A stretch of DNA of 48,044 bases from a virus: positions 1 through 48,044 of IMG/VR virus record IMGVR_UViG_3300027834_000010, one strand, 5' to 3'. Below the pieces are notes generated by a model. It worked only from the letters and a program-made list of their open reading frames with translations, did no database searches and was not told where the DNA came from. The position numbers and the translations under genes were made by a program. Below, one piece after another: positions 2,802 through 46,968 of the stretch. The first letter of the stretch is position 1, and each line of letters starts with the position of its first letter.

Positions 2802-3398
2802 TTATAAAGAATTGGGCCATTGATGAGAAGGCCACTTGTTTTCCTCTTCCTCTGGCGCTTCATCTGAATAGCTAGACAGCTTTTCTAAAACACCTTCCAT
2901 AACAGCATGCTCTTCATCCATTTGATTCATACGATAAGTTAGCTCGCTAATCTTACCGTTAAGAACAATTTCATACATATTCAAGTCGTCTTTGCACGTA
3001 ACCCGACCAAGACGTTTAGTTAATTTTTTAAGCTCTGTATCGACCTTACAAGAAGCTGCCACTAAATCGCTAATTGCAGATCTCGAGATATCAATTGCTT
3101 TTTCAATTACATTGCCGGAAAAGTTGCTTTCACCAATCATTGAGGCGAACAATTGAGTTATGCGCTGTTCCACTGGATCTTGCTTTGGCTTAACTTCTTC
3201 GATATCGCCGGTTTGATCATAGCGAGCTTTACGCTCAGGATCAGACAAAATATCATAAGCCAATTTTACGCGCTGAAACTTTTCTTTATCACCACCTTGT
3301 TTATCTGGGTGAACTTTTGACGATGCTGACTTGTAAGCTTTTTTTATTGCTGCTTTGTCAGTATCTACGGTTACATTTAATTCTTCATATGGGTTCAT
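2802..3398 (-). CDS. J-domain protein (DnaJ-like)
   Basis: The N-terminal 65 residues are a clear J-domain, with the invariant HPD tripeptide (VHPDKQGG) between helices and the YDILSDPERKARYD end. The remaining 130 residues are helical and charged, without the Gly/Phe or zinc-finger parts of full DnaJ. J-domains stimulate the ATPase of host DnaK. A phage could use this in replication-complex remodelling, as lambda does through host DnaJ, or in virion assembly. It lies between the endolysin and small nuclease genes in the leftward operon. The J-domain call is firm; the client is unknown. Confidence 0.9.
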   Translation of the reverse strand: MNPYEELNVTVDTDKAAIKKAYKSASSKVHPDKQGGDKEKFQRVKLAYDILSDPERKARYDQTGDIEEVKPKQDPVEQRITQLFASMIGESNFSGNVIEKAIDISRSAISDLVAASCKVDTELKKLTKRLGRVTCKDDLNMYEIVLNGKISELTYRMNQMDEEHAVMEGVLEKLSSYSDEAPEEEENKWPSHQWPNSL

Positions 3399-7514: not shown

Positions 7515-8363
7515 TTAACTGGCTTCACAGAAGAATCCGCAATCAGGTACATAGATTGGATCTTTAATGCCAACACCATCTGGTAAATATCTCAGCGGTA
7601 TTCTCATTTGACCATCTTGAGGCTTAATTTTAATTTGCTTTAGCTTGCCTGATTTAATATCCTCGGCAATCTTAATGATTACTTCTGGATGGTTATTCAT
7701 AAGCTTCATGGTTGACATGTTACACATAGCAACGCCAAGTATTTCTTCTTCGCGGGCTCGTTTTTCAAATACATCAGGAAAGCATATTCTAACCAGATTC
7801 CAGTAACCGACACTTGACGACTTTAAGCACCCTTTGCAGTTATTATTTGGGAAGCCTAAGTGATACATTTCAGGCAAGCGAATACCAGCATCTTCAAGCA
7901 TTTTAAAACAATCCTGCTTTGTGCAATTAGCTTCAACTAAAGGTGCGTCAAACATGGTGTTTGGCTCATTATCAATTAAATCATCAATGCGCTTTTCTTC
8001 TTCCGAAGTCATACCAAAAACATGAATATCACCATCTTGCTGCCAATCTAAACGAACTTGCTTTTTAAGTTCCTTTGTACACCTTGCTCCATTAACGCCA
8101 GACATATATTTAGTTTGCTTTACCACTTCCGATACAGATGAATTGTATTTCTCACTGGTTATCATTAGTATTTCTTGACCAAGCCAAGCTTCACAATCTT
8201 TACGGTAACGCTCATTATCTTCATGCTCATCTTCAATAAAAATACTAACGACCACCAATTTTTTAGGGAAAGGGAGTTTGTTGTTAGCTATGATTTTTAA
8301 TTTAGCAGCAACTGTTGATGCTGCACCATGACTAAACCAGCACACTATTCTTTCGTCACTCAT
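7515..8363 (-). CDS. PAPS reductase-like (adenine nucleotide alpha-hydrolase) protein
   Basis: This 282-residue protein belongs to the PAPS-reductase/PP-loop family found in many phages. A modified PP-loop, CWFSHGAAST (S11, G13, S16), is near the N-terminus. HVFGMTSEEEKR lies mid-protein and NNNCKGCLKSSSVGYWN (a CxxC pair) later on. The family activates or reduces sulfate nucleotides or transfers sulfur; DndC, in DNA phosphorothioation, is a relative. The phage substrate is unknown. A role in DNA modification or counter-defence is possible but not shown. The start at 8363 has AAGGA 6 bases upstream; a longer start is less well placed. A decayed second member lies at 9691-10092. Confidence 0.85.
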   Translation of the reverse strand: MSDERIVCWFSHGAASTVAAKLKIIANNKLPFPKKLVVVSIFIEDEHEDNERYRKDCEAWLGQEILMITSEKYNSSVSEVVKQTKYMSGVNGARCTKELKKQVRLDWQQDGDIHVFGMTSEEEKRIDDLIDNEPNTMFDAPLVEANCTKQDCFKMLEDAGIRLPEMYHLGFPNNNCKGCLKSSSVGYWNLVRICFPDVFEKRAREEEILGVAMCNMSTMKLMNNHPEVIIKIAEDIKSGKLKQIKIKPQDGQMRIPLRYLPDGVGIKDPIYVPDCGFFCEAS

Positions 8364-8368
8364 AATAA

Positions 8369-8390
8369 TTCCTTTTTCCATTAAAGTTTA
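8369..8390 (-). repeat. Start-associated repeat, partial copy C
   Basis: On the minus strand TAAACTTTAATGGAAAAAGG precedes the 8363 start. It shares the TAAACT...AAAAAGGAA core with copies A and B. AGTTTACT at 8385-8392 also matches the arm of the 16264-16298 palindrome. Confidence 0.5.
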
Positions 8391-34048: not shown

Positions 34049-36664
34049 TTGGCTATATATAATAAGTTTAATCGCGGTGAAATTGATCCTCTTGCATTGG
34101 CTCGTGATGATGTGACTAAGGTTAATAACTCGTGTGAGTTAATGAATAACTTTTTCCCTTTGCGTTTGGGACCTATGCAATTTCGACCTGGTATGGAATA
34201 TATAGGGTTGGTAACCGGCCAAACTTATCACGTTCCTTTTGTCGCTGGTGTAACCGATAAAGCTATTCTTGAATTCACTAATAACAAATTAAGGTTATGG
34301 GTTGATGATTCTCCTATTGCGCGTGAAGCTGTAGGTAGCACAATAACAAACCCTAACTTTTCATCCGATATTTCTGGTTGGACTGATGCATCTGGTGCGG
34401 GTAGTACGACAGGGCATGATTTTGGTGGTTACGCTGATTTAAAAGGTTCGGGTTCTACAAGTGCCGTTTTATATCAGACGGTAACTGTCTCAGGTGGTGA
34501 TGTTAATGCTGAACATGGTATTAATATCAACATATTCCAATCAAACGTTCTTGTTAAAATCGGCACCTCTGGCGCTAACAGTGATGAAATATTTAATGGA
34601 ATTCTTTCACCAGGCACACATTCATTACTTATAACTCCGACTAGTGATTTTACAGTCACGTTATCTAACAGTGAGAAATATAGCGCATTAGTTAATTCAG
34701 TTAATATTGAAGGTGCTGGTGAGTTATTTTTCCCTACTATTATAAGTGAATCTGAATTATCAACCATTCGCTACTCTCAATCTGCTGATGTTATTTTTGT
34801 TACTCATGATACTGGTAAAATTTATAGAGTTGAGCGAAGAGGAAAGAGATCGTGGTCACTTGTTGATTTCAGCTCTGATGATGGTCCTTTTGGATTTATA
34901 AATGATAGTGATATCTCAATGGCTTCGAGCGCCCTTGATGGCAACGCTACGTTAACAGCATCTTCAGATTACTTTAAACCCGGTCATGTTGGTGCGTTAT
35001 TCAAGTTAGGATCTGCAGGTCAGCAAGTTTCCGCCTCTGTTACTGTTGAAGATACCGGCACTAACTCAATACGTGTTACAGGTGTTGGCACCTCAAGACA
35101 GTTTAGTGTTAGTGTTTCAGCGTTAAGTGGTACAGGTTCAACGGTAACACTTCAAAGATCAGCCGATGATTCTAGTTGGGTTGATGTTGAAAGCTATACT
35201 AGTAATCAATCAAAAACGTTTGATGATGATCTTGATAATTCAATTTTATTTTATCGACTACATGTAAAGGTCGGTGATTATTCTTCTGGCACTATCGGTT
35301 TAGCTCTTGATTTTGCTGGCGGCTCTATTGAAGGTATCGCACGAGTTACCGCATACGTTGCAGGGACTTCGGTTACTATTCAAGTATTGGTTCCTTTTGG
35401 CTCTATCTTAGCAACTCGTGATTGGTATGAATCACAATGGTCTGATGTTTCTGGTTATCCATCTGCTAATAAATTATATGAAGGCCGCTTGTGGTTTGCT
35501 GGCAAAACTAATTTATGGGGCTCAGTATCAGATAAATTTTCATCCTTTGATCGCACTATAGAAGGCGATTCTGCATCTATATTTAAAACTATAGGCTTTG
35601 GCCCTGTTGAAACTGTTCAGTGGCTAGGTGAATCAACTCGATTAATAATGGGTATAGCTTCGGATGAAATAAGCGTTCGATCATCTAGCTTTGGTGAAAT
35701 ACTTACACCAACTAATACCAATTTAAAATCAGGATCTTCACAAGGTTCAGCACCTATAACGCCGGTCAGGATAGATGATTTACTTTATTACGTTCAACGG
35801 TCAGGCGTAAAAATGATGGAGCTTGAATACGCGCTAGGTTCAGATAATCACAAAGGCCGCGATTTAATGATGCTTAACCAAAATATTTGTATTGAAGGGA
35901 TAAAGCGCATAGCTGTTGTACGCCAACCTGAAACAAGAATTGTTGTTGTAATGAATGACGGTACCGCACGAATATATTTATTTGATGTTTCTGAAAATGT
36001 TGCTGCTTGGAGTAGGTTTAATACTCCTGATGGTTTAATTGAAGATGTGGTTACTTTGCCGGGACTTGTTGAGGATGAGATATACTTAACTGTTAATAGA
36101 TCTGGTGTTCGTGGTTTGGAAAAGATGGCAAAAATAGCGGCCTATGAAAGCAAGCATTTTGATTCATTTAAATCTTATACTTCACCTGGTACTACATTAA
36201 CAGGACTTGATCACTTAAATGGTAAAACTGTTGGTGTCTGGGGTGATGGTGCAGCGCAAGATGATGAAGTTGTGAGTGGTGGCTCAATAACAACGGGCTC
36301 ATTTACTGATGTTACTGTTGGCATAAAGTACGAAGCAGATTATTTATCTAATAAATTAGGTCAGTATGTTAAGTCTGGTTCAACTGGTGCTTCATCAAGG
36401 TTAACGAATAGAGCAAGAATAATTGATATTGGGCTTGTTGCTCACAGGCTTTACCCAGGCGTTTTAACTTTTGGGCCATCTTTTGATTTGCTAGATCCTA
36501 TGCCTGACTATGAAGAAGATGATGAACCTAATACTTATGACAACGAGCCTTTTGAGTTTAACGGTTCACACGATACTAACAGTAGGGTAGCATTAAGAGC
36601 TACAGGTCCTTGTGCTATTATGGCTTTAGTTTATGACATTAATGATAAGACCACTAGCAAGTAA
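34049..36664 (+). CDS. Tail nozzle protein (tail tubular protein B-like)
   Basis: This 871-residue protein starts at TTG 34049 with CGGAG upstream. Its N-terminus (FNRGEIDPLALARDD...NNFFPLRLGPMQFRPGMEYIG) is the hallmark of podovirus nozzle proteins of the BPP-1/T7 gp12 group. Several beta modules, including a Ser/Thr/Gly-rich inserted domain (about 105-230 and 325-430), come before the conserved SANKLYEGRLWFAGKTNLWGS part. Six copies would close the tail tube. It overlaps the acetyltransferase-like gene. Confidence 0.88.
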   Translation: MAIYNKFNRGEIDPLALARDDVTKVNNSCELMNNFFPLRLGPMQFRPGMEYIGLVTGQTYHVPFVAGVTDKAILEFTNNKLRLWVDDSPIAREAVGSTITNPNFSSDISGWTDASGAGSTTGHDFGGYADLKGSGSTSAVLYQTVTVSGGDVNAEHGININIFQSNVLVKIGTSGANSDEIFNGILSPGTHSLLITPTSDFTVTLSNSEKYSALVNSVNIEGAGELFFPTIISESELSTIRYSQSADVIFVTHDTGKIYRVERRGKRSWSLVDFSSDDGPFGFINDSDISMASSALDGNATLTASSDYFKPGHVGALFKLGSAGQQVSASVTVEDTGTNSIRVTGVGTSRQFSVSVSALSGTGSTVTLQRSADDSSWVDVESYTSNQSKTFDDDLDNSILFYRLHVKVGDYSSGTIGLALDFAGGSIEGIARVTAYVAGTSVTIQVLVPFGSILATRDWYESQWSDVSGYPSANKLYEGRLWFAGKTNLWGSVSDKFSSFDRTIEGDSASIFKTIGFGPVETVQWLGESTRLIMGIASDEISVRSSSFGEILTPTNTNLKSGSSQGSAPITPVRIDDLLYYVQRSGVKMMELEYALGSDNHKGRDLMMLNQNICIEGIKRIAVVRQPETRIVVVMNDGTARIYLFDVSENVAAWSRFNTPDGLIEDVVTLPGLVEDEIYLTVNRSGVRGLEKMAKIAAYESKHFDSFKSYTSPGTTLTGLDHLNGKTVGVWGDGAAQDDEVVSGGSITTGSFTDVTVGIKYEADYLSNKLGQYVKSGSTGASSRLTNRARIIDIGLVAHRLYPGVLTFGPSFDLLDPMPDYEEDDEPNTYDNEPFEFNGSHDTNSRVALRATGPCAIMALVYDINDKTTSK

Positions 36665-37004
36665 TGATTTGTCTGAATTTAATCATATGGGCTTCACGGT
36701 AAGAGGATTAGCAATCGAGCTAGACGGTGAAGTCGTTGGTATAGCCGGCGTTCTTCACACTAATCCTATACAAGCGTTTAGTCGAATGGATGATAAATTA
36801 AGAAAGCATCCTAAGACTATAATGAAAGTTATTAAGAAATTTAAAGATATACTTAGTAATTACAATTCACCAATCTATGCAATTGCTAGCGAAAAAGAAT
36901 ATAATTCAAACAAAGTGCTTGAGCGAATTGGCTTTAAGTTCTTCCACGAAAATGAACAAGGTCGATTTTATAGAATAGGGGTAGATCATGGATGCAGTGT
37001 TTAA
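36642..37004 (+). CDS. GNAT-like acyltransferase of tail operons
   Basis: This protein of about 120 residues starts MIRPLASNDLSEFNHMGFTV (ATG at 36642; one at 36633 is also possible). Its ends resemble the GNAT fold: VVGIAGVLH for beta strand 4 and SNKVLERIGFKFFHENEQG near the acyl-CoA end. Small GNAT-like proteins lie between nozzle and internal virion protein genes in many podoviruses; the substrate is unknown. It overlaps the nozzle gene by 23 bases and the next gene by 17. Confidence 0.72.
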   Translation: MIRPLASNDLSEFNHMGFTVRGLAIELDGEVVGIAGVLHTNPIQAFSRMDDKLRKHPKTIMKVIKKFKDILSNYNSPIYAIASEKEYNSNKVLERIGFKFFHENEQGRFYRIGVDHGCSV

Positions 37005-37423: not shown

Positions 37424-37819
37424 ATGCAAAATGATTTAATACTAACCGATGCTCGCTATGGTGAGCTTGGTATGATTGAAAACGAAGATGGATCAGTATC
37501 AACTGAATTTTCTATCACAACAGAAATACCTGAATTAGGAGGGTGGGTTAATATCCCTACATTAGTTCAAGGTCAAGATGATTTAGCTTTCTTGGAAACT
37601 GGCGAGCTTAGTGAAGAAAATGAACGCATCGCAATTGATCGGGCTCGTGAACGTGTTGCTTCTGGCGCAAGATTACCGGCTTACAACACTCCTGATGAAG
37701 CTGTTGAAGCTGCTGAAAATCGCAGCGAAGACGAAAAGATGGAGCCTTACATTCCAACCAAAAAAGATCAGGAGCGCAAGCCTGATTTAGGTCTTACTAC
37801 GGTGATCAACAATGGCTAA
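37424..37819 (+). CDS. Virion-associated conserved protein
   Basis: This 131-residue protein starts at ATG 37424, just after the upstream stop. WVNIPTLVQGQDDLAFLETG then IAIDRARERVASGARLPAYN and EAVEAAENRS match a short domain often found alone or fused to internal virion proteins of podoviruses. The acidic tail ends in KKDQERKPDLGL. It overlaps the next gene by 8 bases. Precise role unknown. Confidence 0.7.
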   Translation: MQNDLILTDARYGELGMIENEDGSVSTEFSITTEIPELGGWVNIPTLVQGQDDLAFLETGELSEENERIAIDRARERVASGARLPAYNTPDEAVEAAENRSEDEKMEPYIPTKKDQERKPDLGLTTVINNG

Positions 37820-39383
37820 AATACCTGATGCGGCAAGTATAGGAAGAAAAGTAGCTAATACTCAAAAGGGTGTTAGAGGCATTAATACTAGCAAATTTGC
37901 ACCAAATGAATTAGGCGCAGCCTTGAAGGGCCTTGTTGATAAAAATGAACGCTATGAAACAACCAAAGCCGAAACTGAATTTCTCACAGTAAAAAATGCC
38001 CAGGATAACGCCTATGATCAAGATGAAGATTATAAAACTATCAATGAGCGTTATGGTAAGGAGCTGGATAAAGGTCTTGCTGAAACATCAATGGGTATCA
38101 CTAGCCCTAGCGCAAGGGCTGAATTCATCCAACGTAACCAATTAAGGATTGAGCAAGGCAAATCTCGAATGAATAAAATATCATTCGGTAAAGAACGCGA
38201 TCATGAAAGAGCATACATCAACGAATCATTAACAAAATTACATGAGCAATCGGTAACTGGTGAGCTTGATGATGTTAATGCTTCAAAAGAAACCGTTAAA
38301 GGCTTGGTAGATTCAGGCGTTGAAATGGGTTATTACTCTGCAGAAGAAGCAAGTGAATTAAAATCTTCATGGCGAAACAATGCCGCCGTAGGCCGATTGG
38401 AAACAATGGACCCCGCAACGAGACTAGAAGCGTTGAGTATGCCATGGGCTCAAGACTTACCCGCAGAAGATCGCGCTAAGCTAACCAAACAAGCAGAAGA
38501 GGCGACTTTCGCGCAAAAGGCAGTTGATACTGTCGATGAGTATTTGCTACTTGATATGAGTCGCGGTGATGCGATGATTAACGCCGGAAGAATACCTGAT
38601 GAAAGACTTCGTAAAGAAGTTGAACGCCGCTTTGATTATATGCATGGTAAACAAAAAGAATTTGAGACTGAAGAACGTTCAGAGATATTTGATAAATATT
38701 ATCTTGATGTTCGCAAAGGTGATTTAACAGTTGATGATATTCCTAATGAAGAATTGCGAGCATTATCGCCGGCGCAGCAAAGTAATTTATTTAGCGCTCA
38801 GTCTGCTTCAGTTGGCAGAACTAGAACTGTTAGTGATCGCGCTGCTGTTGATACTCTTCACGGATTGCAGCAAACAGGTAAGTTTAGAGAGTTGCGTGAA
38901 TTCTTTATGGCGAATTCAGATAAGCTAAATGAAACCGCATTTAATACATGGTCCAAAGTAAGTCAAAAGGGTGAAATGCCTGTTGAAATAAAATCAATGC
39001 TTACTACTCAACAGCGAATGAATGCCAAGTTAGAAAACGCCCAGATAAACGATAGCAACGCTAAATCAAAACTATCAGGTGAAATGGATTCATGGTATAT
39101 GAATTTTCAAGCTGAAAATGGTGGCAAGCTGCCAACTGATGAGCAGTCTGATAAGCAAATGGATCGCTTGATGCTTCAGTTTGATACAACTTGGTTATGG
39201 GGTGGAACTAAGCCAATTTTCCAAATGAGTGAGGATGAACGCTCAACAGTTATAGGTAATATAGCAGAAGAAGACCCTGATCTATTCAACGCCGTTAAAA
39301 ATGCATATACTAAGCGTGGAGTAGATCCTTCACCTGAGCAATTTTTAGAGACTTATAATAATGCCATCAAACAACGAAAGTGA
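37812..39383 (+). CDS. Internal virion protein, gp15-like
   Basis: This 523-residue protein is nearly all helical, with coiled-coil parts and no membrane segment. Size, composition and place between the gp14-like and giant proteins match the middle ejection protein (T7 gp15 role), which forms part of the DNA translocation channel in the periplasm. Sequence marks: YDQDEDYKTINERYGKELDK and WAQDLPAEDRAKLTKQAEEA. The last 23 bases overlap the giant gene. Confidence 0.75.
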   Translation: MAKIPDAASIGRKVANTQKGVRGINTSKFAPNELGAALKGLVDKNERYETTKAETEFLTVKNAQDNAYDQDEDYKTINERYGKELDKGLAETSMGITSPSARAEFIQRNQLRIEQGKSRMNKISFGKERDHERAYINESLTKLHEQSVTGELDDVNASKETVKGLVDSGVEMGYYSAEEASELKSSWRNNAAVGRLETMDPATRLEALSMPWAQDLPAEDRAKLTKQAEEATFAQKAVDTVDEYLLLDMSRGDAMINAGRIPDERLRKEVERRFDYMHGKQKEFETEERSEIFDKYYLDVRKGDLTVDDIPNEELRALSPAQQSNLFSAQSASVGRTRTVSDRAAVDTLHGLQQTGKFRELREFFMANSDKLNETAFNTWSKVSQKGEMPVEIKSMLTTQQRMNAKLENAQINDSNAKSKLSGEMDSWYMNFQAENGGKLPTDEQSDKQMDRLMLQFDTTWLWGGTKPIFQMSEDERSTVIGNIAEEDPDLFNAVKNAYTKRGVDPSPEQFLETYNNAIKQRK

Positions 39384-42300
39384 TTTAAATATAGATAGCT
39401 TACTGGATGAACAATTGGGTTCATCCGATACATCAAAGCCTAATTTAAATCGTGCCTCACATTTTGACCCTAACCAGCAAGCGGAAGTGATAACGCTTGC
39501 TGAGTCGCGAAACATTGATCTTGAAACTGTTGAGAATAATCTAGGCGAGTTCAAGCGCCGTTCTAAAGTTGAAGCCATTGATACCACTGGTTACCCTAAA
39601 CTATCGCAATACTTAAGTGATGATAGAAATTCTCGCGTATCAGTTGATGATATAACCAACCTCAAAGGCATTGAAGGTGCTGTTCGTGAATCTGAAAATG
39701 GGTTCTGGTCCAACATTGGACGAGGAACATTAAACCGAGTTAACACTTTAACGGGTAACCTCGTTGAATTTACTGGTAACGTTGGCGAAAACTTCGAAGA
39801 TTATCTTGGTGAAAAAGGCATTCCGAACCCTGGTATTGTTATCGGTGAAGATGGCCTTAGTTGGTCTTGGGATATTCCCGACGAAACCCCTAACTTATTG
39901 AAAAATATAGGTAAAGCAGTTTCAGAAGGTGATGGCTATGGTTATCAGCCTCGTTTCACTTGGGAAAGATTTAAAGGTGATATGAACCCAAAAACATTAG
40001 CGGGTTATATTACTGAACAAGGCGTTCAATCGGTCCCTGATATGATGGCGGCTATCTTCACGTTACCGGCTTATATCTCTTCACGAACTGAAGAGATAGC
40101 TGAAGACCGTGTAAAGAATGACGAGCGTAAAGATGTAACAGGTCAAGATTTAGCTACCTCATTAATTCCTGCTGTAGCGGTAAGTTTAATTGAACGTTTA
40201 GCTGGTAAAGTTACCCTTGGTGTTGGCGGCGTTACCACTGGCAAAGAAGCAATCAAGGCAACAGGTGCGGCGGCATTAACTGAAGGTGGTACTGAGTTTA
40301 TTCAAGAAGGCATTGAATACTTAGGTGAAACTGTTGGTACTAAAAAAGATGTTTCAGTTAAAGAAATGATTGATCGTCAACTGGCTGGCCTTGTTGCTGG
40401 TTCTGGCATGGGCGCATCAATTCGTGGTGCCACTTCATCATATGAAGCTTTAGCTAGTCGCGCAGAACGTAATGTTGAAACTGTTATTATGTCTACCGGC
40501 GAGCAAGAAACTATTGATCAGATAGCTACCTTTGCCCAGGCTTCAACAACTCGTGGCCGAAAAGAAGACAGGTACCGCAATTTCCTTAAAGGTCTAGAAA
40601 CCGACAAGCAAGTTCATATATCAAGCGATGCAGTAATTGAAGCCGCTCAAAATGGCGTTGAATTACCTTCTTACATGACTGAACAAATAGATGGCTTAGG
40701 TACTGATATAACCGTTGATATGGAGCAATTTGGCACTGACATAGCACCAAACGAAGATATCATGACTTCTTTACGTCCTCATATGCGTTTATCAAGTGAT
40801 TCATTATCACCGGCACAATTAGAAGCTCAGGATGATTTTAGTATTAAGTCATTGCTTGAACGTGCTGAAAAATCAAAGACGGCATTAACTGAAGCTGAAA
40901 CTATTTATGAAGATGTTAAGCAACAGTTAGTTGATTCTGGCAGACAAAGCGAAGCTACTGCTCGTTATAGTGCTGCAATAATTCCCGCATACGCAACAGT
41001 AAAAGCCGAACAAACAGGTAAAACCGTTAAAGAAATTTACGAAATGATGGGTTTATCTATCGTTGGCCCTGCAACTAAAAATGGTGACGGTAAAACTTTA
41101 GAGCAAGTATACAAGGCATTTCATGGTACTGGTGAAAAGTTCGATTCGTTTGATAAAGAAAAGTTAGGTTCTTTTACGGGCGCTGACTCTGCAACTAAAG
41201 GGTTCTTCTTTACATCTGATCGCGGATTGGCTGAATCATTTAAAACCGAAGCTGAAAGAAAGACGGTAGATATTAAAGGTATTGAGCAATCAATTCGTGA
41301 TTTATCTAATGATGAGATATTTCAATTATTCGAAGATGCTGGTTTGGATAATATTGTTGGGCCTTATGATCCTGATGATGTTAATGGTGCGGTTACTGAT
41401 ATTGTTACCTTGCTTGAAGAAGATCTTTCTACCGAAATATTAGAGGAACGTTCTGGCGTTGATGCGATTATTCGTAAAAAAATTGGTGATTCTAGTTTTG
41501 ATCAGGGCGAGCTGAAAGAAGTATCTGTTGATTTGCAAAACCCTTTAATTGTTGAATTTAATCCTGATGATGAACTGAATGAAGGCGCAATAAACGAAGC
41601 TATAGATGAGGCCAGTAAATCAGGCAATGATGGCGTTATATTTAAAAATATGAAAGATGCCGCTATTGTCGATGAAAAAGGTGATGGCTCAATTGTTAGT
41701 GATGTTTATTTTGTTTTTGATGATTCAAAAGTATCACCTTCAGAATTGGCGCAAAGCGATGTAACTAAAAATTTAGTAGTCACTCATAACATCACTGAAG
41801 AAGGTATTAGGCAAGCTGAAGCACTTGGTGGATTGGCTGCACCGTCAATAGCAGTTGCTAATGTTGATGTAGGGTTTGATAGCTTCGGTGAAATATCACT
41901 AATTGCTGACCCATCGTTGCTAGACGAAAAAAAAGTAAGAACATTTGACACTGATATTTATAGCTCGCGTCAACCACGTGCTGATGAACAACTTGACATC
42001 AAACAGGTTAGGATTTTGGGTGAGGGTATTGATTCGTCGATCAAAGGTACTAAATTACATAACCCTACTGACGGCAGTATCACAAGTAAAAATGCACTCG
42101 ATGGTAAAGCAACACAGTTACATTATTTATCAACAATAGGTAAAGCGCCTAAACAGAAGAAGATGAAAGAGAATAAGATAAGCAAGTCAATCATCGGTGT
42201 ACCTGCTGTTGATGTACTTGAAGATCCTAACTTTGTTAAAAATGTTGCAGATAAATATAACAAAATGGTTAGTGACATCAAAGCCACTGACCCAACTGTT

Positions 42301-45300
42301 GACCAAGAATTTCTCGATGACATTGCAAGTACATGGTTTAACTTTAAACTTCCTGAAGGCTATGAAGTGCGTAGAGTTGATGGTGGCTTCCAAGCATTCG
42401 CACCAGGTGATGCTGAAGTTGGCAAAGCATTTGCGAGTAAAAACCTTGTTATAAGACGAACTATTGCATCATTAAAGCAAGATGGTATCACTGGTGGAAT
42501 TGATTACAACTCACCAAAACAAGATATTCTACGTGATGAGTTGTCGAAAGCCCGTAGCATAAATGACGGCATTGATATGTCAAAGCTGCGTGATGATATT
42601 CGTAAAAAGATGGATCAGAAAAGTATTAAGTCTGGTTACAAAAAATGGTTAGATAACACTTATAACACACTTGTTAAGAGTAAGCGTTTGTTCGCAGGTT
42701 ACACACCAAGCGGTGATCGTAAGTATAAGCCTTACAACCTTGATACGCTTGTTCGTGAAATGAATAAAAAGTTACAAGGTGGTGAATCGTCTAATTATGG
42801 CATTACATCTGTAAGGGCAATGTACGCCAATGAAATGACGAACAAGAAAAAAGTTCAAGCTAACCGTGACAAAATCGTATCGTCAGAAGAAATGGAAGAT
42901 ATAAAGGGTGATGCTGACTTGGTGTTTGAGGATGCAATGGAAAGTCTCAAGCCTTATTATGTCGGTCAAACCGAAGGGTGGGGCTACATGTCTGATGTTG
43001 CTGAATCAATCACTGAGGGACCTAGCGGAATACGCGAAGCATTTGAAGGGAGCGCAGAAGCCAATAAGATAATCAATAAACTCGGCGCTTACTTAGCAAA
43101 CTTGCCTACACAATACTTTGAAGCTAAAGTTCAGCGAGCAATGGACTTTTCAGAATTTAAGGTTGCGGTTGTACCTAAAAGCACAAGTAAAGAAGTCGTT
43201 GAACTACTAAAGGCTAAAGGCATTACTGTTAAACGTTATGATGAGAATGTTGAAGGTGCGCGTAGCGAACTAGTGAAGAAGCAAGAAAAACTTCTATTTC
43301 AACCAGCACAAACAGACGGGGCCAATCAATTAAAACGTGGTTCTATCCGTATTGATGATGATTCGATGATCATTAAGATGCACCAGGCTAGTGACTTGTC
43401 AACGTTCCTTCATGAGTCCGGCCACTTATTCCTTGAAATGGAAGGTAAGCTTTCTGAACTAAATGGTGTTACTGATGATCAGCAAGTTATTCTCGATTGG
43501 TTAGAAGTCGATTCATTTAAAGATATTGATACTGAGCAACATGAAAAGTTTGCTGAAACATTTGAGGTTTATCTTCGTGAAGGTAATGCTCCATCATTAG
43601 CTTTACGTGATGCTTTTGCAGCGTTCAAGCGCTGGTTGATTCGTATCTATCAAAACTTAACTGACCAACGTTTACAGCGAGCAGAACTTTCAGAAGAAAT
43701 TATTGAAGTATTTGATCGCTTGCTTGCAACTGAAGCTGAAATTGAATTGGCAACGGCTAACCCTGCTTATGATCAATTCTTTAAATCTAAAGAGCAATCA
43801 GGCATGAGTGATATTGAATGGGATGCTTATTTAAAACGTCAAGAGCAAACTAAAAATAGAGCCCAAGAAACAATCGATACCAAAGTAATGAAAGAATTAA
43901 CTTATCGTTACAGTGAAGATTGGAAGAATGAAAAGGCACCAATGATTGATGAAGAAATTGCTCGTCTATCTGAAGAGCCAGTTTATTCAGTATTAAACGA
44001 TACAACTGTAATGCCAATGGATAGAAAATTGGTAAAAGAGTTTCTTGGTATTACAAAATTACCTAAGCAATTATATGGCCGCACTGAGGTTGATGGGATT
44101 GATCCACAAGAATATTCAGAAGTTAATGGCTTTGCTAGTCCTGAACAAATGCTCACTGAAATGGTTTCAGTTCCACCATTAAAAGAAGCCGCTGATGCTG
44201 CGGCTCAAGAGCGAATGATTGAAAAGCATGGTGATATTTTAAATGATGGCACAATTGAGGTAGAAGCGCAGGAGGCTATTCATAACGAAACTCAAGCTAA
44301 ATTATTATTGGAAGAGTTAAAAGCACTTAAACCTGAACGTGCTAACAAAATTAACCGTGATTATCTCAAGGCAGAAGCTAAAACTTTAATCGGTTCAATG
44401 AAGTTTAAAGAAATACAGCCTAACAAATATTATCGTGCTGAAATTAAAGCGGCTCAAAAGGCTGTTTTAGCCAAAGATAAAGAGCAGCAATACAATCACA
44501 AGGTTCAGCAATTAGCTAATCATTATATGTATCGTGAGGCTGTTGAGACAAAGGATCGCATGACCAAGCATCGCAAGTATGTAAAGTCTGTCCAAACTCG
44601 TGAGTATAATACTAAACAAGTTAATCCTGAGTATGTTCAAAACATGAAGGTTTTAGCAAACTTGTACGATATGCGCCAAAAGCCTGATCAGCAAGTGGCA
44701 GTTAATAACCTGCTTAATTGGTACGTTGCACAAGTTGATGATGAAAATCAATTTGTTCAACTTGAATTGCTCGATGTTAATTTAATCGAAGCGCTTGAAG
44801 CTAAACAGAACGGCGAAATTACTGAATTAAAATTACCTACCTTTGATGATTTATCAGCGCAAGATCTTCAGGGCCTTAATGATATGTTGCGCCACCTTCG
44901 TTATGTTGGCGGTGTAATGTCTGATCTTGGTAAGGCTGAATTTAATAAAACCATTGATGATATGGCTGAATCTATATTAAAGAATGGCAAGTCTGATTAT
45001 AAAGGTCGTGGCGGTGTTGCGCGTAGACTTGAAGAGCAGCGAAGAGAATTATCTCATTTTGTTAATAAGTTTCCTTCACTGAGAAACCTTATCAGAAAAC
45101 TTGACGGTGATTTTAAAGATAGTGATGTTGAAGGTGTTATGCATAAAGAAATTTTTAGATTAGTTGAAGAAGCTAATTCTGACAAAATAACGCTTAATGC
45201 TGATCTTCATAAAAAGTTTCAGGAAATTTTAGGTGATATTTATCGCGTTGGTTTAACCAGGGGTGGCAATAAAACTTACCTACTTGATAGCGGCTTAACC

Positions 45301-46968
45301 TTTGATGCTCACAATGAAGCTAGATTTATGCTTGCTGTTTATTGGGGTACTGAAACAAGTCGTGAAGCTGTTCGTGATGGTTACGGCATGACTGATAACG
45401 ATGTAATGAAAATTATGTCTGACTTAACGACAGAACAATTAAAAATGGTTAATAAAGTTTGGGAAATGAATGAAACCGTTTGGCCTCAACTTTCTAGCGC
45501 TTCAGTTAAATTGCTTGGTGTTGCTCCACCTAAACTAGATGCGATGCCGTTTACTGTTAATGGTGTTAATATGTCTGGTGGTCATATGCGCCTAATGTAT
45601 GACTCGTCTAGATTAGATTTAAAGGCTGATCAAGATCAGGCAACAAGAATGCAAACAGTTGTACCTACTCGCGCCGGTTCAACTTTTGCGCGTGTTGGTG
45701 GTGGAGGTTCACCTGTTAAGCTTTACACTTCAAATATTTCTCAATCACTAGAAGAGAATATTCACTATATTGCATTTGCTGAAAGTGGCCGTAGAACTCA
45801 AAGCTTAATAAATAACCCTAAAGTTAAGCAAGCCATTGAACAAAAGCATGGCAATGGATTTTTCGGTGCGTTAATTGAAAACCTTGAAGGCACTATTTCA
45901 AACCGCTCTTACCGTGAAACGGTTAAAACTATCGCTAGAATATCTAAGCTATTAAGACGAGCGGCAACCTATAAGCATTTATGTTTTTCTATTCGAAATA
46001 CAGTGCAACAATTTTCATCGTTACCTGTAATCGTTGATGAGCTTGGTGTGGTGCCAGTTATTAACGCGATGAATAGAATTGTTACCGATAATGACTTAGT
46101 TGATTTTATCAATGATAGATCGCCATTTATGAAAGAACGCGCATCATTCGTTAACCGTGAAGCTGCAGAATTCCTTAAAGATTTAGATGTTACCAATAAC
46201 GTGCAGAAAAAATACCGTGACTTTGCTAGTAAAGGCTTCTTCATGCAAACAGCAATTGATTCATTGCTTGCTTATCCAACTTGGTTAGCAACTTATGAAA
46301 GACAATTTGAATTACATGGTGATGATAAACGAGCATCAAGCGAAGCGAATACCGCTGTTGCTGAATCAGTTGGCTCAGGTAGTGATTTACATATGGGCGC
46401 TTTGTTCCAAAAAAATCAATCTGAATTCGTTAAAATAATGACGTTGTTTGGCTCGTGGTTTAACTCTTATTATCAAAGAATGTACCGATCAACTGAAGGC
46501 TGGACTACTGCCGATGCTGGAACTATTAAAGCTTTATTTATGACCCCGGTAATATCTGCAACCATGGCCGCATTGCTAGTTATGGATTATCCCGCCGATG
46601 ATAGTGATGAAGCTTGGTACGAGTGGATGACTAAGCGCTACGTTTCCTTTATGGGTGGAACGATACCATTCCTTCGTGATATTGTAGGCTCATTTAGTGG
46701 CTACAGCCCTAAAACGTTATTAGGTGGTGGTCAAGAAACTGCGTTCAGGCTTTACGGTGAATTTGATTCATTCCTTAGTGGCAAGCAATCAGGCGTAAAA
46801 GCAACCAGTGATATAACTAAAGCTATAACCACAATAGTTCCTGTACCTGGTATCGGTAACGTCACAAGGGTTATGGATTTTGTAGATAGTAATTCACAAG
46901 GTAAAGAAAGCGGAAACGCCATCAAAAAAACCTACCAGGCAATAGTTGAAGGAAAGGATAAAAATTAA
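39361..46968 (+). CDS. Giant polyvalent internal virion protein (ART + zincin + LPD38-like)
   Basis: This 2535-residue protein holds the place of the largest ejection protein (T7 gp16). Visible parts: an ART-PolyVal ADP-ribosyltransferase-like domain at about 585-790, with AFHGTGEKFDSF (H588-G-T), KGFFFTSDRG and DVYFVFDDSKVSP. A zincin-type metallopeptidase follows at about 1335-1435, with HESGH (1351-1355), FAETFE carrying a third ligand Glu, and AFAAFKRWLIRIYQNL. The C-terminal region (2200-2535) is LPD38-like, with SWFNSYYQRMYR and a hydrophobic stretch near 2390-2410. Polyvalent proteins of phages and conjugative elements are sent in with DNA to disable host targets. Known are the families; the targets here are inference. 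No lytic transglycosylase motif was seen. Confidence 0.85.
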   Translation: MPSNNESDLNIDSLLDEQLGSSDTSKPNLNRASHFDPNQQAEVITLAESRNIDLETVENNLGEFKRRSKVEAIDTTGYPKLSQYLSDDRNSRVSVDDITNLKGIEGAVRESENGFWSNIGRGTLNRVNTLTGNLVEFTGNVGENFEDYLGEKGIPNPGIVIGEDGLSWSWDIPDETPNLLKNIGKAVSEGDGYGYQPRFTWERFKGDMNPKTLAGYITEQGVQSVPDMMAAIFTLPAYISSRTEEIAEDRVKNDERKDVTGQDLATSLIPAVAVSLIERLAGKVTLGVGGVTTGKEAIKATGAAALTEGGTEFIQEGIEYLGETVGTKKDVSVKEMIDRQLAGLVAGSGMGASIRGATSSYEALASRAERNVETVIMSTGEQETIDQIATFAQASTTRGRKEDRYRNFLKGLETDKQVHISSDAVIEAAQNGVELPSYMTEQIDGLGTDITVDMEQFGTDIAPNEDIMTSLRPHMRLSSDSLSPAQLEAQDDFSIKSLLERAEKSKTALTEAETIYEDVKQQLVDSGRQSEATARYSAAIIPAYATVKAEQTGKTVKEIYEMMGLSIVGPATKNGDGKTLEQVYKAFHGTGEKFDSFDKEKLGSFTGADSATKGFFFTSDRGLAESFKTEAERKTVDIKGIEQSIRDLSNDEIFQLFEDAGLDNIVGPYDPDDVNGAVTDIVTLLEEDLSTEILEERSGVDAIIRKKIGDSSFDQGELKEVSVDLQNPLIVEFNPDDELNEGAINEAIDEASKSGNDGVIFKNMKDAAIVDEKGDGSIVSDVYFVFDDSKVSPSELAQSDVTKNLVVTHNITEEGIRQAEALGGLAAPSIAVANVDVGFDSFGEISLIADPSLLDEKKVRTFDTDIYSSRQPRADEQLDIKQVRILGEGIDSSIKGTKLHNPTDGSITSKNALDGKATQLHYLSTIGKAPKQKKMKENKISKSIIGVPAVDVLEDPNFVKNVADKYNKMVSDIKATDPTVDQEFLDDIASTWFNFKLPEGYEVRRVDGGFQAFAPGDAEVGKAFASKNLVIRRTIASLKQDGITGGIDYNSPKQDILRDELSKARSINDGIDMSKLRDDIRKKMDQKSIKSGYKKWLDNTYNTLVKSKRLFAGYTPSGDRKYKPYNLDTLVREMNKKLQGGESSNYGITSVRAMYANEMTNKKKVQANRDKIVSSEEMEDIKGDADLVFEDAMESLKPYYVGQTEGWGYMSDVAESITEGPSGIREAFEGSAEANKIINKLGAYLANLPTQYFEAKVQRAMDFSEFKVAVVPKSTSKEVVELLKAKGITVKRYDENVEGARSELVKKQEKLLFQPAQTDGANQLKRGSIRIDDDSMIIKMHQASDLSTFLHESGHLFLEMEGKLSELNGVTDDQQVILDWLEVDSFKDIDTEQHEKFAETFEVYLREGNAPSLALRDAFAAFKRWLIRIYQNLTDQRLQRAELSEEIIEVFDRLLATEAEIELATANPAYDQFFKSKEQSGMSDIEWDAYLKRQEQTKNRAQETIDTKVMKELTYRYSEDWKNEKAPMIDEEIARLSEEPVYSVLNDTTVMPMDRKLVKEFLGITKLPKQLYGRTEVDGIDPQEYSEVNGFASPEQMLTEMVSVPPLKEAADAAAQERMIEKHGDILNDGTIEVEAQEAIHNETQAKLLLEELKALKPERANKINRDYLKAEAKTLIGSMKFKEIQPNKYYRAEIKAAQKAVLAKDKEQQYNHKVQQLANHYMYREAVETKDRMTKHRKYVKSVQTREYNTKQVNPEYVQNMKVLANLYDMRQKPDQQVAVNNLLNWYVAQVDDENQFVQLELLDVNLIEALEAKQNGEITELKLPTFDDLSAQDLQGLNDMLRHLRYVGGVMSDLGKAEFNKTIDDMAESILKNGKSDYKGRGGVARRLEEQRRELSHFVNKFPSLRNLIRKLDGDFKDSDVEGVMHKEIFRLVEEANSDKITLNADLHKKFQEILGDIYRVGLTRGGNKTYLLDSGLTFDAHNEARFMLAVYWGTETSREAVRDGYGMTDNDVMKIMSDLTTEQLKMVNKVWEMNETVWPQLSSASVKLLGVAPPKLDAMPFTVNGVNMSGGHMRLMYDSSRLDLKADQDQATRMQTVVPTRAGSTFARVGGGGSPVKLYTSNISQSLEENIHYIAFAESGRRTQSLINNPKVKQAIEQKHGNGFFGALIENLEGTISNRSYRETVKTIARISKLLRRAATYKHLCFSIRNTVQQFSSLPVIVDELGVVPVINAMNRIVTDNDLVDFINDRSPFMKERASFVNREAAEFLKDLDVTNNVQKKYRDFASKGFFMQTAIDSLLAYPTWLATYERQFELHGDDKRASSEANTAVAESVGSGSDLHMGALFQKNQSEFVKIMTLFGSWFNSYYQRMYRSTEGWTTADAGTIKALFMTPVISATMAALLVMDYPADDSDEAWYEWMTKRYVSFMGGTIPFLRDIVGSFSGYSPKTLLGGGQETAFRLYGEFDSFLSGKQSGVKATSDITKAITTIVPVPGIGNVTRVMDFVDSNSQGKESGNAIKKTYQAIVEGKDKN

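Follow-up and report, generated by a model that had tools for sequence, protein, structure and literature searches.

The window analysed here, the full 48,044 nucleotides of the viral contig IMGVR_UViG_3300027834_000010, has a late region of the podovirus type, in which genes for the portal, capsid, tail tubes and small internal virion proteins are followed by the gene for a 523-aa protein and then by a giant gene. The latter occupies the site of T7 gene 16, after the genes for tail tube A/B and for internal virion proteins. It is a single uninterrupted reading frame on the plus strand (39361-46968), open throughout, and encodes the 2535-residue protein that an earlier note, made from the sequence alone, had placed there. 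A second IMG/VR contig carries it as well, with 100% identity. The features discussed below are as follows (all on the plus strand).

37812-39383, +, 523-aa syntenic partner of the relatives' "structural lysozyme" (match to PHROG 10475 over the C-terminal part only)
39361-46968, +, giant polyvalent protein in the ejection position, 2535 aa (open reading frame; relatives in phage records and IMG/VR)
39361-41067, +, N-terminal chassis, residues 1-569 (73.7% identical over 1-582 in L004)
39457-39699, +, LPD22 domain, residues 33-113 (Pfam PF18834, E 6e-12)
41098-41106, +, junction mark LEQ, residues 580-582, start of the bay (AF2 low-confidence linker 570-580; bay-start enrichment)
41107-41754, +, cargo module 1, predicted ADP-ribosyltransferase (ART), residues 583-798, with H588, F616 and D757 (Pfam, alignment, AF2, Foldseek)
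41746-41754, +, junction mark LAQ, residues 796-798, between the cargo modules (AF2 pLDDT <50 at 794-800)
41755-43302, +, cargo module 2 (M2), predicted RNase of the PBECR5 type, residues 799-1314 (Pfam, alignments, AF2 mostly pLDDT >90)
43294-43302, +, junction mark LFQ, residues 1312-1314, end of the bay (63/70 bays; AF2 pLDDT <50 from 1314)
43318-43770, +, zincin metallopeptidase-like domain, residues 1320-1470 (invariant residues in 68/68)
43411-43425, +, HESGH motif, residues 1351-1355 (sequence; alignment of relatives)
43543-43545, +, E1395, likely third zinc ligand (invariant in 68/68; N4 vRNAP NEFMAW by eye)
43771-46965, +, C-terminal all-helical chassis, residues 1471-2535 (constant length in relatives; AF2)

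In most of the dozen or so phage relatives that were inspected, the giant gene is flanked by a "structural lysozyme" gene on one side and by a gene for a tail fibre or spike on the other. The structural lysozyme has about 700 aa in several relatives; in the 523-aa partner in the window, no lysozyme domain was found, and Pfam gave no match. Further upstream, at the position of T7 gp13, a 123-aa protein that looks GNAT-like by eye (36633-37004) matches PHROG 308, "internal virion protein". On the minus strand, the phage encodes a J-domain protein (2802-3398; Pfam DnaJ, E 1e-17) and a 288-aa protein (7515-8381) that by eye is of the PAPS-reductase/ATP-pyrophosphatase type and has no Pfam match.

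Relatives of the giant protein were found in 60 phage records, each with less than 60% identity and Bordetella phage BPP-1 Bbp10 among them, and a scan of IMG/VR confirmed at least 532 relatives. One 50 kb contig (IMGVR_UViG_3300045977_000222) encodes two giant chassis proteins, L086 and L090, with bays of 129 and 1004 aa, and is either a pair of joined phages or a genuine duplication. Searches of PDB sequences with the whole protein, with a profile of its core and with a profile of M2 returned nothing credible. With at least two unrelated enzymatic domains (ART, PBECR5, zincin) and a gene sited among virion genes, the protein is a phage polyvalent protein. It sits in the ejection position, as the earlier note had recognized, and delivery of its ART to the host by a presumed injection is likely.

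Comparison with relatives divides the protein into residues 1-569 and 1320-2535, which by alignment form a conserved chassis, and residues 570-1319, which alone form a cargo bay. The closest informative relative, L004, is 74% identical over residues 1-582 and 63% over residues 1321-2535, and holds a different ART and a GNAT-like domain between these matching ends. Among 78 relatives, the part past the zincin hardly varies in length (1237+-39 aa), and the part before it varies widely (1234+-421 aa). When the bay was located by a profile of the last ~200 residues of the N-terminal part, which matched 77 giant proteins, its length ranged from 21 to 2343 aa with a median of 462 (n=75 relatives); in two proteins, L012 of Vibrio phage MZH0603 and L043, it is empty, with about 22 aa. 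Pfam searches on 73 bays identified the enzymes ART (17), PBECR5 (11), GNAT (6), RadC (4) and GGDEF (3), together with DUF7178 (5), LPD3 (3), MuF_C (2), zeta toxin (2) and others. The earlier note had missed this modular bay, and likewise the LPD22 and PBECR5 domains that Pfam places at residues 33-113 and 801-905.

The C-terminal chassis is almost entirely helical in the AF2 model (pLDDT 82), and Foldseek found no match for it in the PDB. About 1000 residues without known motif could, according to the earlier note, hold further effectors, but little of this is free space: residues 799-1314 are one conserved module and residues 1471-2460 belong to the conserved chassis, so that the C-terminal thousand residues are carrier rather than additional effectors. 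An LPD38-like end, also proposed earlier, was rejected, as there is no Pfam LPD38 match and the hhalign probability against the genuine LPD38-bearing end of L118 is 0.1%.

The first cargo module contains the HGT motif, starting at residue 588, from which an ART-like domain had been suspected. Pfam places ART-PolyVal at residues 586-630 with an E of 4e-4 and 21.7-23.6 bits, below the gathering score of 31.2, which close relatives, L004 and L023 among them, do pass. An end-to-end alignment with 13 other ARTs of relatives extends the domain to residues 578-797, with all three signature regions present. H588 is conserved in 91 of 96 relatives and D757, the putative catalytic Asp by virtue of its conservation, in 83 of 88; position 616, Phe in the giant protein, is Tyr in 66 and Phe in 20 of 101 relatives. 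The AF2 model of residues 570-1330, built from 69 sequences with a mean pLDDT of 87, predicts an ART-like fold over 578-797, in agreement with the earlier placement around 585-790 and closest to PARP/ART structures. Foldseek ranks a tankyrase ART first in the PDB (prob 0.93, with a weak E of 0.23), and in BFVD the model matches proteins annotated as PolyVal ADP-ribosyltransferase with E values down to 6e-7. By analogy, the ART would modify host proteins.

The Pfam match of the second module to PBECR5 (E 1e-13, 52 bits against a gathering score of 25) spans just the first part of a conserved unit of 516 residues, more than twice the 239 positions of the PBECR5 profile. In an alignment of about 146 copies, there is virtually no variation at H809, S829, D865, Y1252, E1254 and R1259, and the putative BECR catalytic residues H809 and S829 are present in 146/147 and 147/147, respectively. 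The invariant C-terminal residues of the module are those of a YFE, an R and an E. By analogy with its family, M2 would cut RNA. Homologs of M2 occur in other giant proteins as well.

The zincin motif HESGH and the FAETFE sequence, both pointed out earlier, were found at residues 1351-1355 and 1397-1402. All relatives in the alignment (68/68) share nine residues: H1351, E1352, H1355, E1395, A1398, E1402, Y1404, G1408 and P1411. As this set was gathered partly via zincin motifs, a second scan used the C-terminal core alone; HExxH was kept in 74 of its 75 open reading frames. Both empty-bay proteins have it as well. The exception in the second scan, L320, has lost the HExxH helix and retains the chassis and a mark (LSQ). 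E1395, rather than a residue within FAETFE, is likely the third zinc ligand, judging by a by-eye comparison with N4 vRNAP (IHELVH ... NEFMAW). In the region where a zincin fold had been expected (1335-1435), AF2 predicts a beta hairpin, the HExxH helix and another helix that bears the invariant Glu, in models that have no metal site; a Foldseek search of the PDB with the full model matched no zincin, because the model is dominated by the helical chassis. In two Xanthomonas phages, L098 (about 313-700) and L099 (about 1521-1900), the zincin is interrupted between HExxH and its Glu helix by an insertion with an ART-like HGG motif.

The earlier note had taken the protease for a delivered host-attack domain, a zincin that is itself an effector and cuts host proteins early in infection. 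Polymorphic toxin systems do use zincins as effectors, and the option is given for polyvalent proteins (PMC5512222). However, if host targets drove the evolution of the zincin, variation would be expected, whereas it is constant among relatives, never swapped, kept where the bay is empty and, as set out below, of a clade that predicts the marks between cargo modules. We therefore consider this explanation unlikely. The zincin belongs to the chassis and is probably not a host-attack cargo, and its constancy, empty-bay forms included, makes cutting of its own polypeptide the better reading.

The candidate cut sites lie at the module boundaries. In the giant protein, the cargo modules end in a mark of the form hydrophobic-x-Gln, read from the sequence as LEQ 580, LAQ 796 and LFQ 1312, and these marks coincide with the AF2 low-confidence linkers 570-580, 794-800 and 1314-1330. 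Among relatives, 63 of 70 bays have [LIMFVY]xQ in their last 20 aa, just ahead of the resumed chassis; shuffled sequences give 26+-4, and other windows of the same proteins 20+-4. With E, K or R in place of Q, the pattern shows no enrichment there. The bay-start mark is weaker than the bay-end mark (45/68 against 30+-3.5 shuffled). Carriers with empty bays keep a single mark, VLTQ in L012 and MGQ in L043. We place little weight on the distance from the end of a Pfam domain to the next mark, because its p value is only 0.0014 and the ART tails are homologous. The collections in which the marks were discovered also supplied the further modules and loci for testing them; of these tests, the one on the ART and the one on the set of genome contigs come nearest to being independent.

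Natural swaps of cargo have their breakpoints at the marks. Between L119 and L084, DNA identity of 85-86% extends as far as the Gln of LLAQ and resumes at the Gln of LLFQ/PLEQ, and the breakpoints of L003 and L004 fall within a few residues of marks; in both pairs the flanking DNA is 84-86% identical and the cargoes between the breakpoints differ. L113 differs from L111 by one additional GNAT-like module between two marks. Such breakpoints would also be expected if the marks were never cut and were instead caps at module ends, or scars of exchange, that are passed on within the gene pool of the chassis, and the homology of the ART tail in all copies and the persistence of the mark in L320 fit this idea, too. 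A recombination scar at the DNA level was rejected: Leu codons in the marks are mixed and Gln is encoded by 30 CAG and 30 CAA, and the constraint therefore acts on the protein. The switching of two unrelated modules together, and independent switches in which Gln follows the zincin clade by 7 to 0, speak against end-caps and scars alike, and we regard this explanation as rather unlikely.

These switches are seen when the same module is compared in different carriers. In other giant proteins, M2 ends not in LLFQ, but in LLFS, [VI][KR]FS or RFR, and in several of these proteins an HExxxH zincin follows 70-110 aa further on. The last residue of M2 homologs is Gln in 66 of 67 cases with a chassis-type zincin (64/67 in the script count, before two misread YFQ ends were corrected), but only in 2 of 21 with HExxxH zincins. 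Where M2 lies 117-927 aa away from the zincin, the end is Gln in 10 of 10. An M2 tree built with the mark omitted contains nine independent, supported pairs that differ in zincin type; Gln tracks the zincin clade in a median of 7/9 of these pairs and runs opposite in 0 (p about 0.016), and for the chassis type against HExxxH alone there are six pairs (p about 0.06). A like switch is seen in the tails of the unrelated ART module, from ...FDPNDPNIL(H/N/Y/F)Q to ...FDPxNxDIRFS, with Gln in 37/42 against 2/27 as scripted, the exceptions being mostly script misreads. One protein with the chassis-type zincin (zincin A), L120, has Asn at the mark. Six Bacteroidales-type polyvalent proteins with HExxxH zincins (L198, L215, L217, L222, L225 and L234) mostly have an R-F-R mark, which is possibly a third code.

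A boundary mark that changes with the type of protease suggests that this protease cuts the enzymes free. The marks could in principle be cut by another protease, of host or phage, with some other role for the zincin, and there is precedent in separate prohead proteases that cut short motifs, such as SPN3US gp245, which cuts ejection proteins after A-x-E (PMC10052503). The code, however, tracks the zincin clade and not the host. Non-Gln marks, of the FS type or other, occur in Gammaproteobacteria (L181, L192, L203, L209) and in records of Methylomonas, Endozoicomonas and Pasteurellaceae, and Gln-type marks occur in Sideroxydans, Geobacteraceae, Veillonellaceae, Selenomonadaceae and bins of Planctomycetes, including a Phycisphaerales bin; because both types are spread across host groups, a host protease was rejected as the source of the code. 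Nor is another protease evident near the giant gene, and we consider cleavage by a separate enzyme to be quite unlikely.

Together, the architecture, the swapping of cargo, the boundary marks and their dependence on the zincin clade, all read from sequence comparison, lead to a model of a cargo-carrier protein, from which we infer cleavage and its timing, injection, the enzyme activities and their targets. The chassis (1-569 and 1320-2535) would probably enter the cell alongside the DNA, with interchangeable effectors in its bay, here an ART and an RNase module of the PBECR5 type. The mark at the end of each module, in a flexible linker, would be recognized by the chassis zincin, which would cut there, either within the virion or after entry, and the freed effectors would then modify host protein and RNA. 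We consider this model the simplest and likeliest of the accounts, and give it about an even chance. That empty-bay carriers keep the zincin and a single mark suggests that a cut between the N- and C-terminal halves of the carrier matters even without cargo.

A generalization, about which we are somewhat more hesitant, holds that injected polyvalent proteins are self-cleaving polyproteins, that each zincin clade reads its own mark, and that modules on the move must adopt the mark of their carrier. The code would then be hydrophobic-x-Gln for the chassis zincin, and of the [KR]-F-S or R-F-R type with HExxxH and other zincins. Several observations speak against self-cleavage: N4 vRNAP also bears a zincin, but is packaged unprocessed (PMC5512222); the marks could come with gene pools rather than from selection, with just nine well-supported independent pairs; and L120 has Asn at the mark, and L320 keeps its mark without the HExxH helix. 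Against the cargo-carrier reading stand the ART and zincin folds, neither of which matched the PDB at E<0.001, and the Phe of the ART where relatives mostly have Tyr.

Cutting of polyvalent proteins by their zincins has been predicted since 2017 (PMC5512222), but we found no published cut sites in the open-access literature. A mark that switches with the zincin clade in two unrelated modules now provides exact candidate cut sites, together with a control in the form of copies of a module that bear the other mark. If the model is true, the zincins would be a new family of sequence-specific proteases, and for a long list of giant hypothetical phage proteins the set of mature effectors that they deliver could be predicted: under the generalized code, a module that changes carrier has to gain the mark of the new one, so that mature effectors could be read from sequence. 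The empty-bay relatives define a minimal carrier and could serve the study of phage protein delivery in laboratory strains.

Among known systems, the protein shares its gene position with T7 gp16, after genes of the gp13/14/15 type and before a tail fibre or spike. The earlier assignment as a T7 gp16-type ejection protein holds for the gene position but is not supported as homology: hhalign of profiles from 68 and 12 sequences gave a probability of 0.1%, and unlike in T7 gp16, no transglycosylase was found. The virion RNA polymerase of N4, gp50, is likewise giant and ejected, with a large helical region behind its HExxH domain (PMC12633501), but its cargo is an RNA polymerase, it is packaged unprocessed, and sequence homology was rejected by hhalign profile comparison (0.6%). 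BPP-1 Bbp10 and its homologs in Vibrio, Caulobacter, Pseudomonas, Xanthomonas, Cobetia and Nostoc phages have the same gene position, an intact zincin and a chassis related by homology, with 20-28% identity in the core; they differ in having other cargo or none, and are annotated as hypothetical, lysis or crystallin-motif proteins. In processing by SPN3US gp245 and by prohead proteases of the T4 type, ejection proteins are likewise trimmed at a short P3-x-P1 motif, A-x-E for gp245 (PMC10052503), but the prohead protease is separately encoded, whereas the candidate protease of the giant protein is part of the same chain and its mark is hydrophobic-x-Gln. Polyvalent phage proteins have been described as single polypeptides with disparate enzymatic domains such as ART, PBECR, GNAT and zincin, the last of which was predicted to act on the polypeptide as its processing enzyme (Iyer et al., 2017, PMC5512222); that account names no cut sites, and reports P1 DdrB as cut before packaging and N4 vRNAP as uncut. 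The giant protein resembles these proteins in joining an ART, a PBECR domain and a zincin and in being encoded among virion genes. Unlike in that account, its family shows a fixed chassis, one bay, empty-bay forms and boundary marks that depend on the zincin clade.
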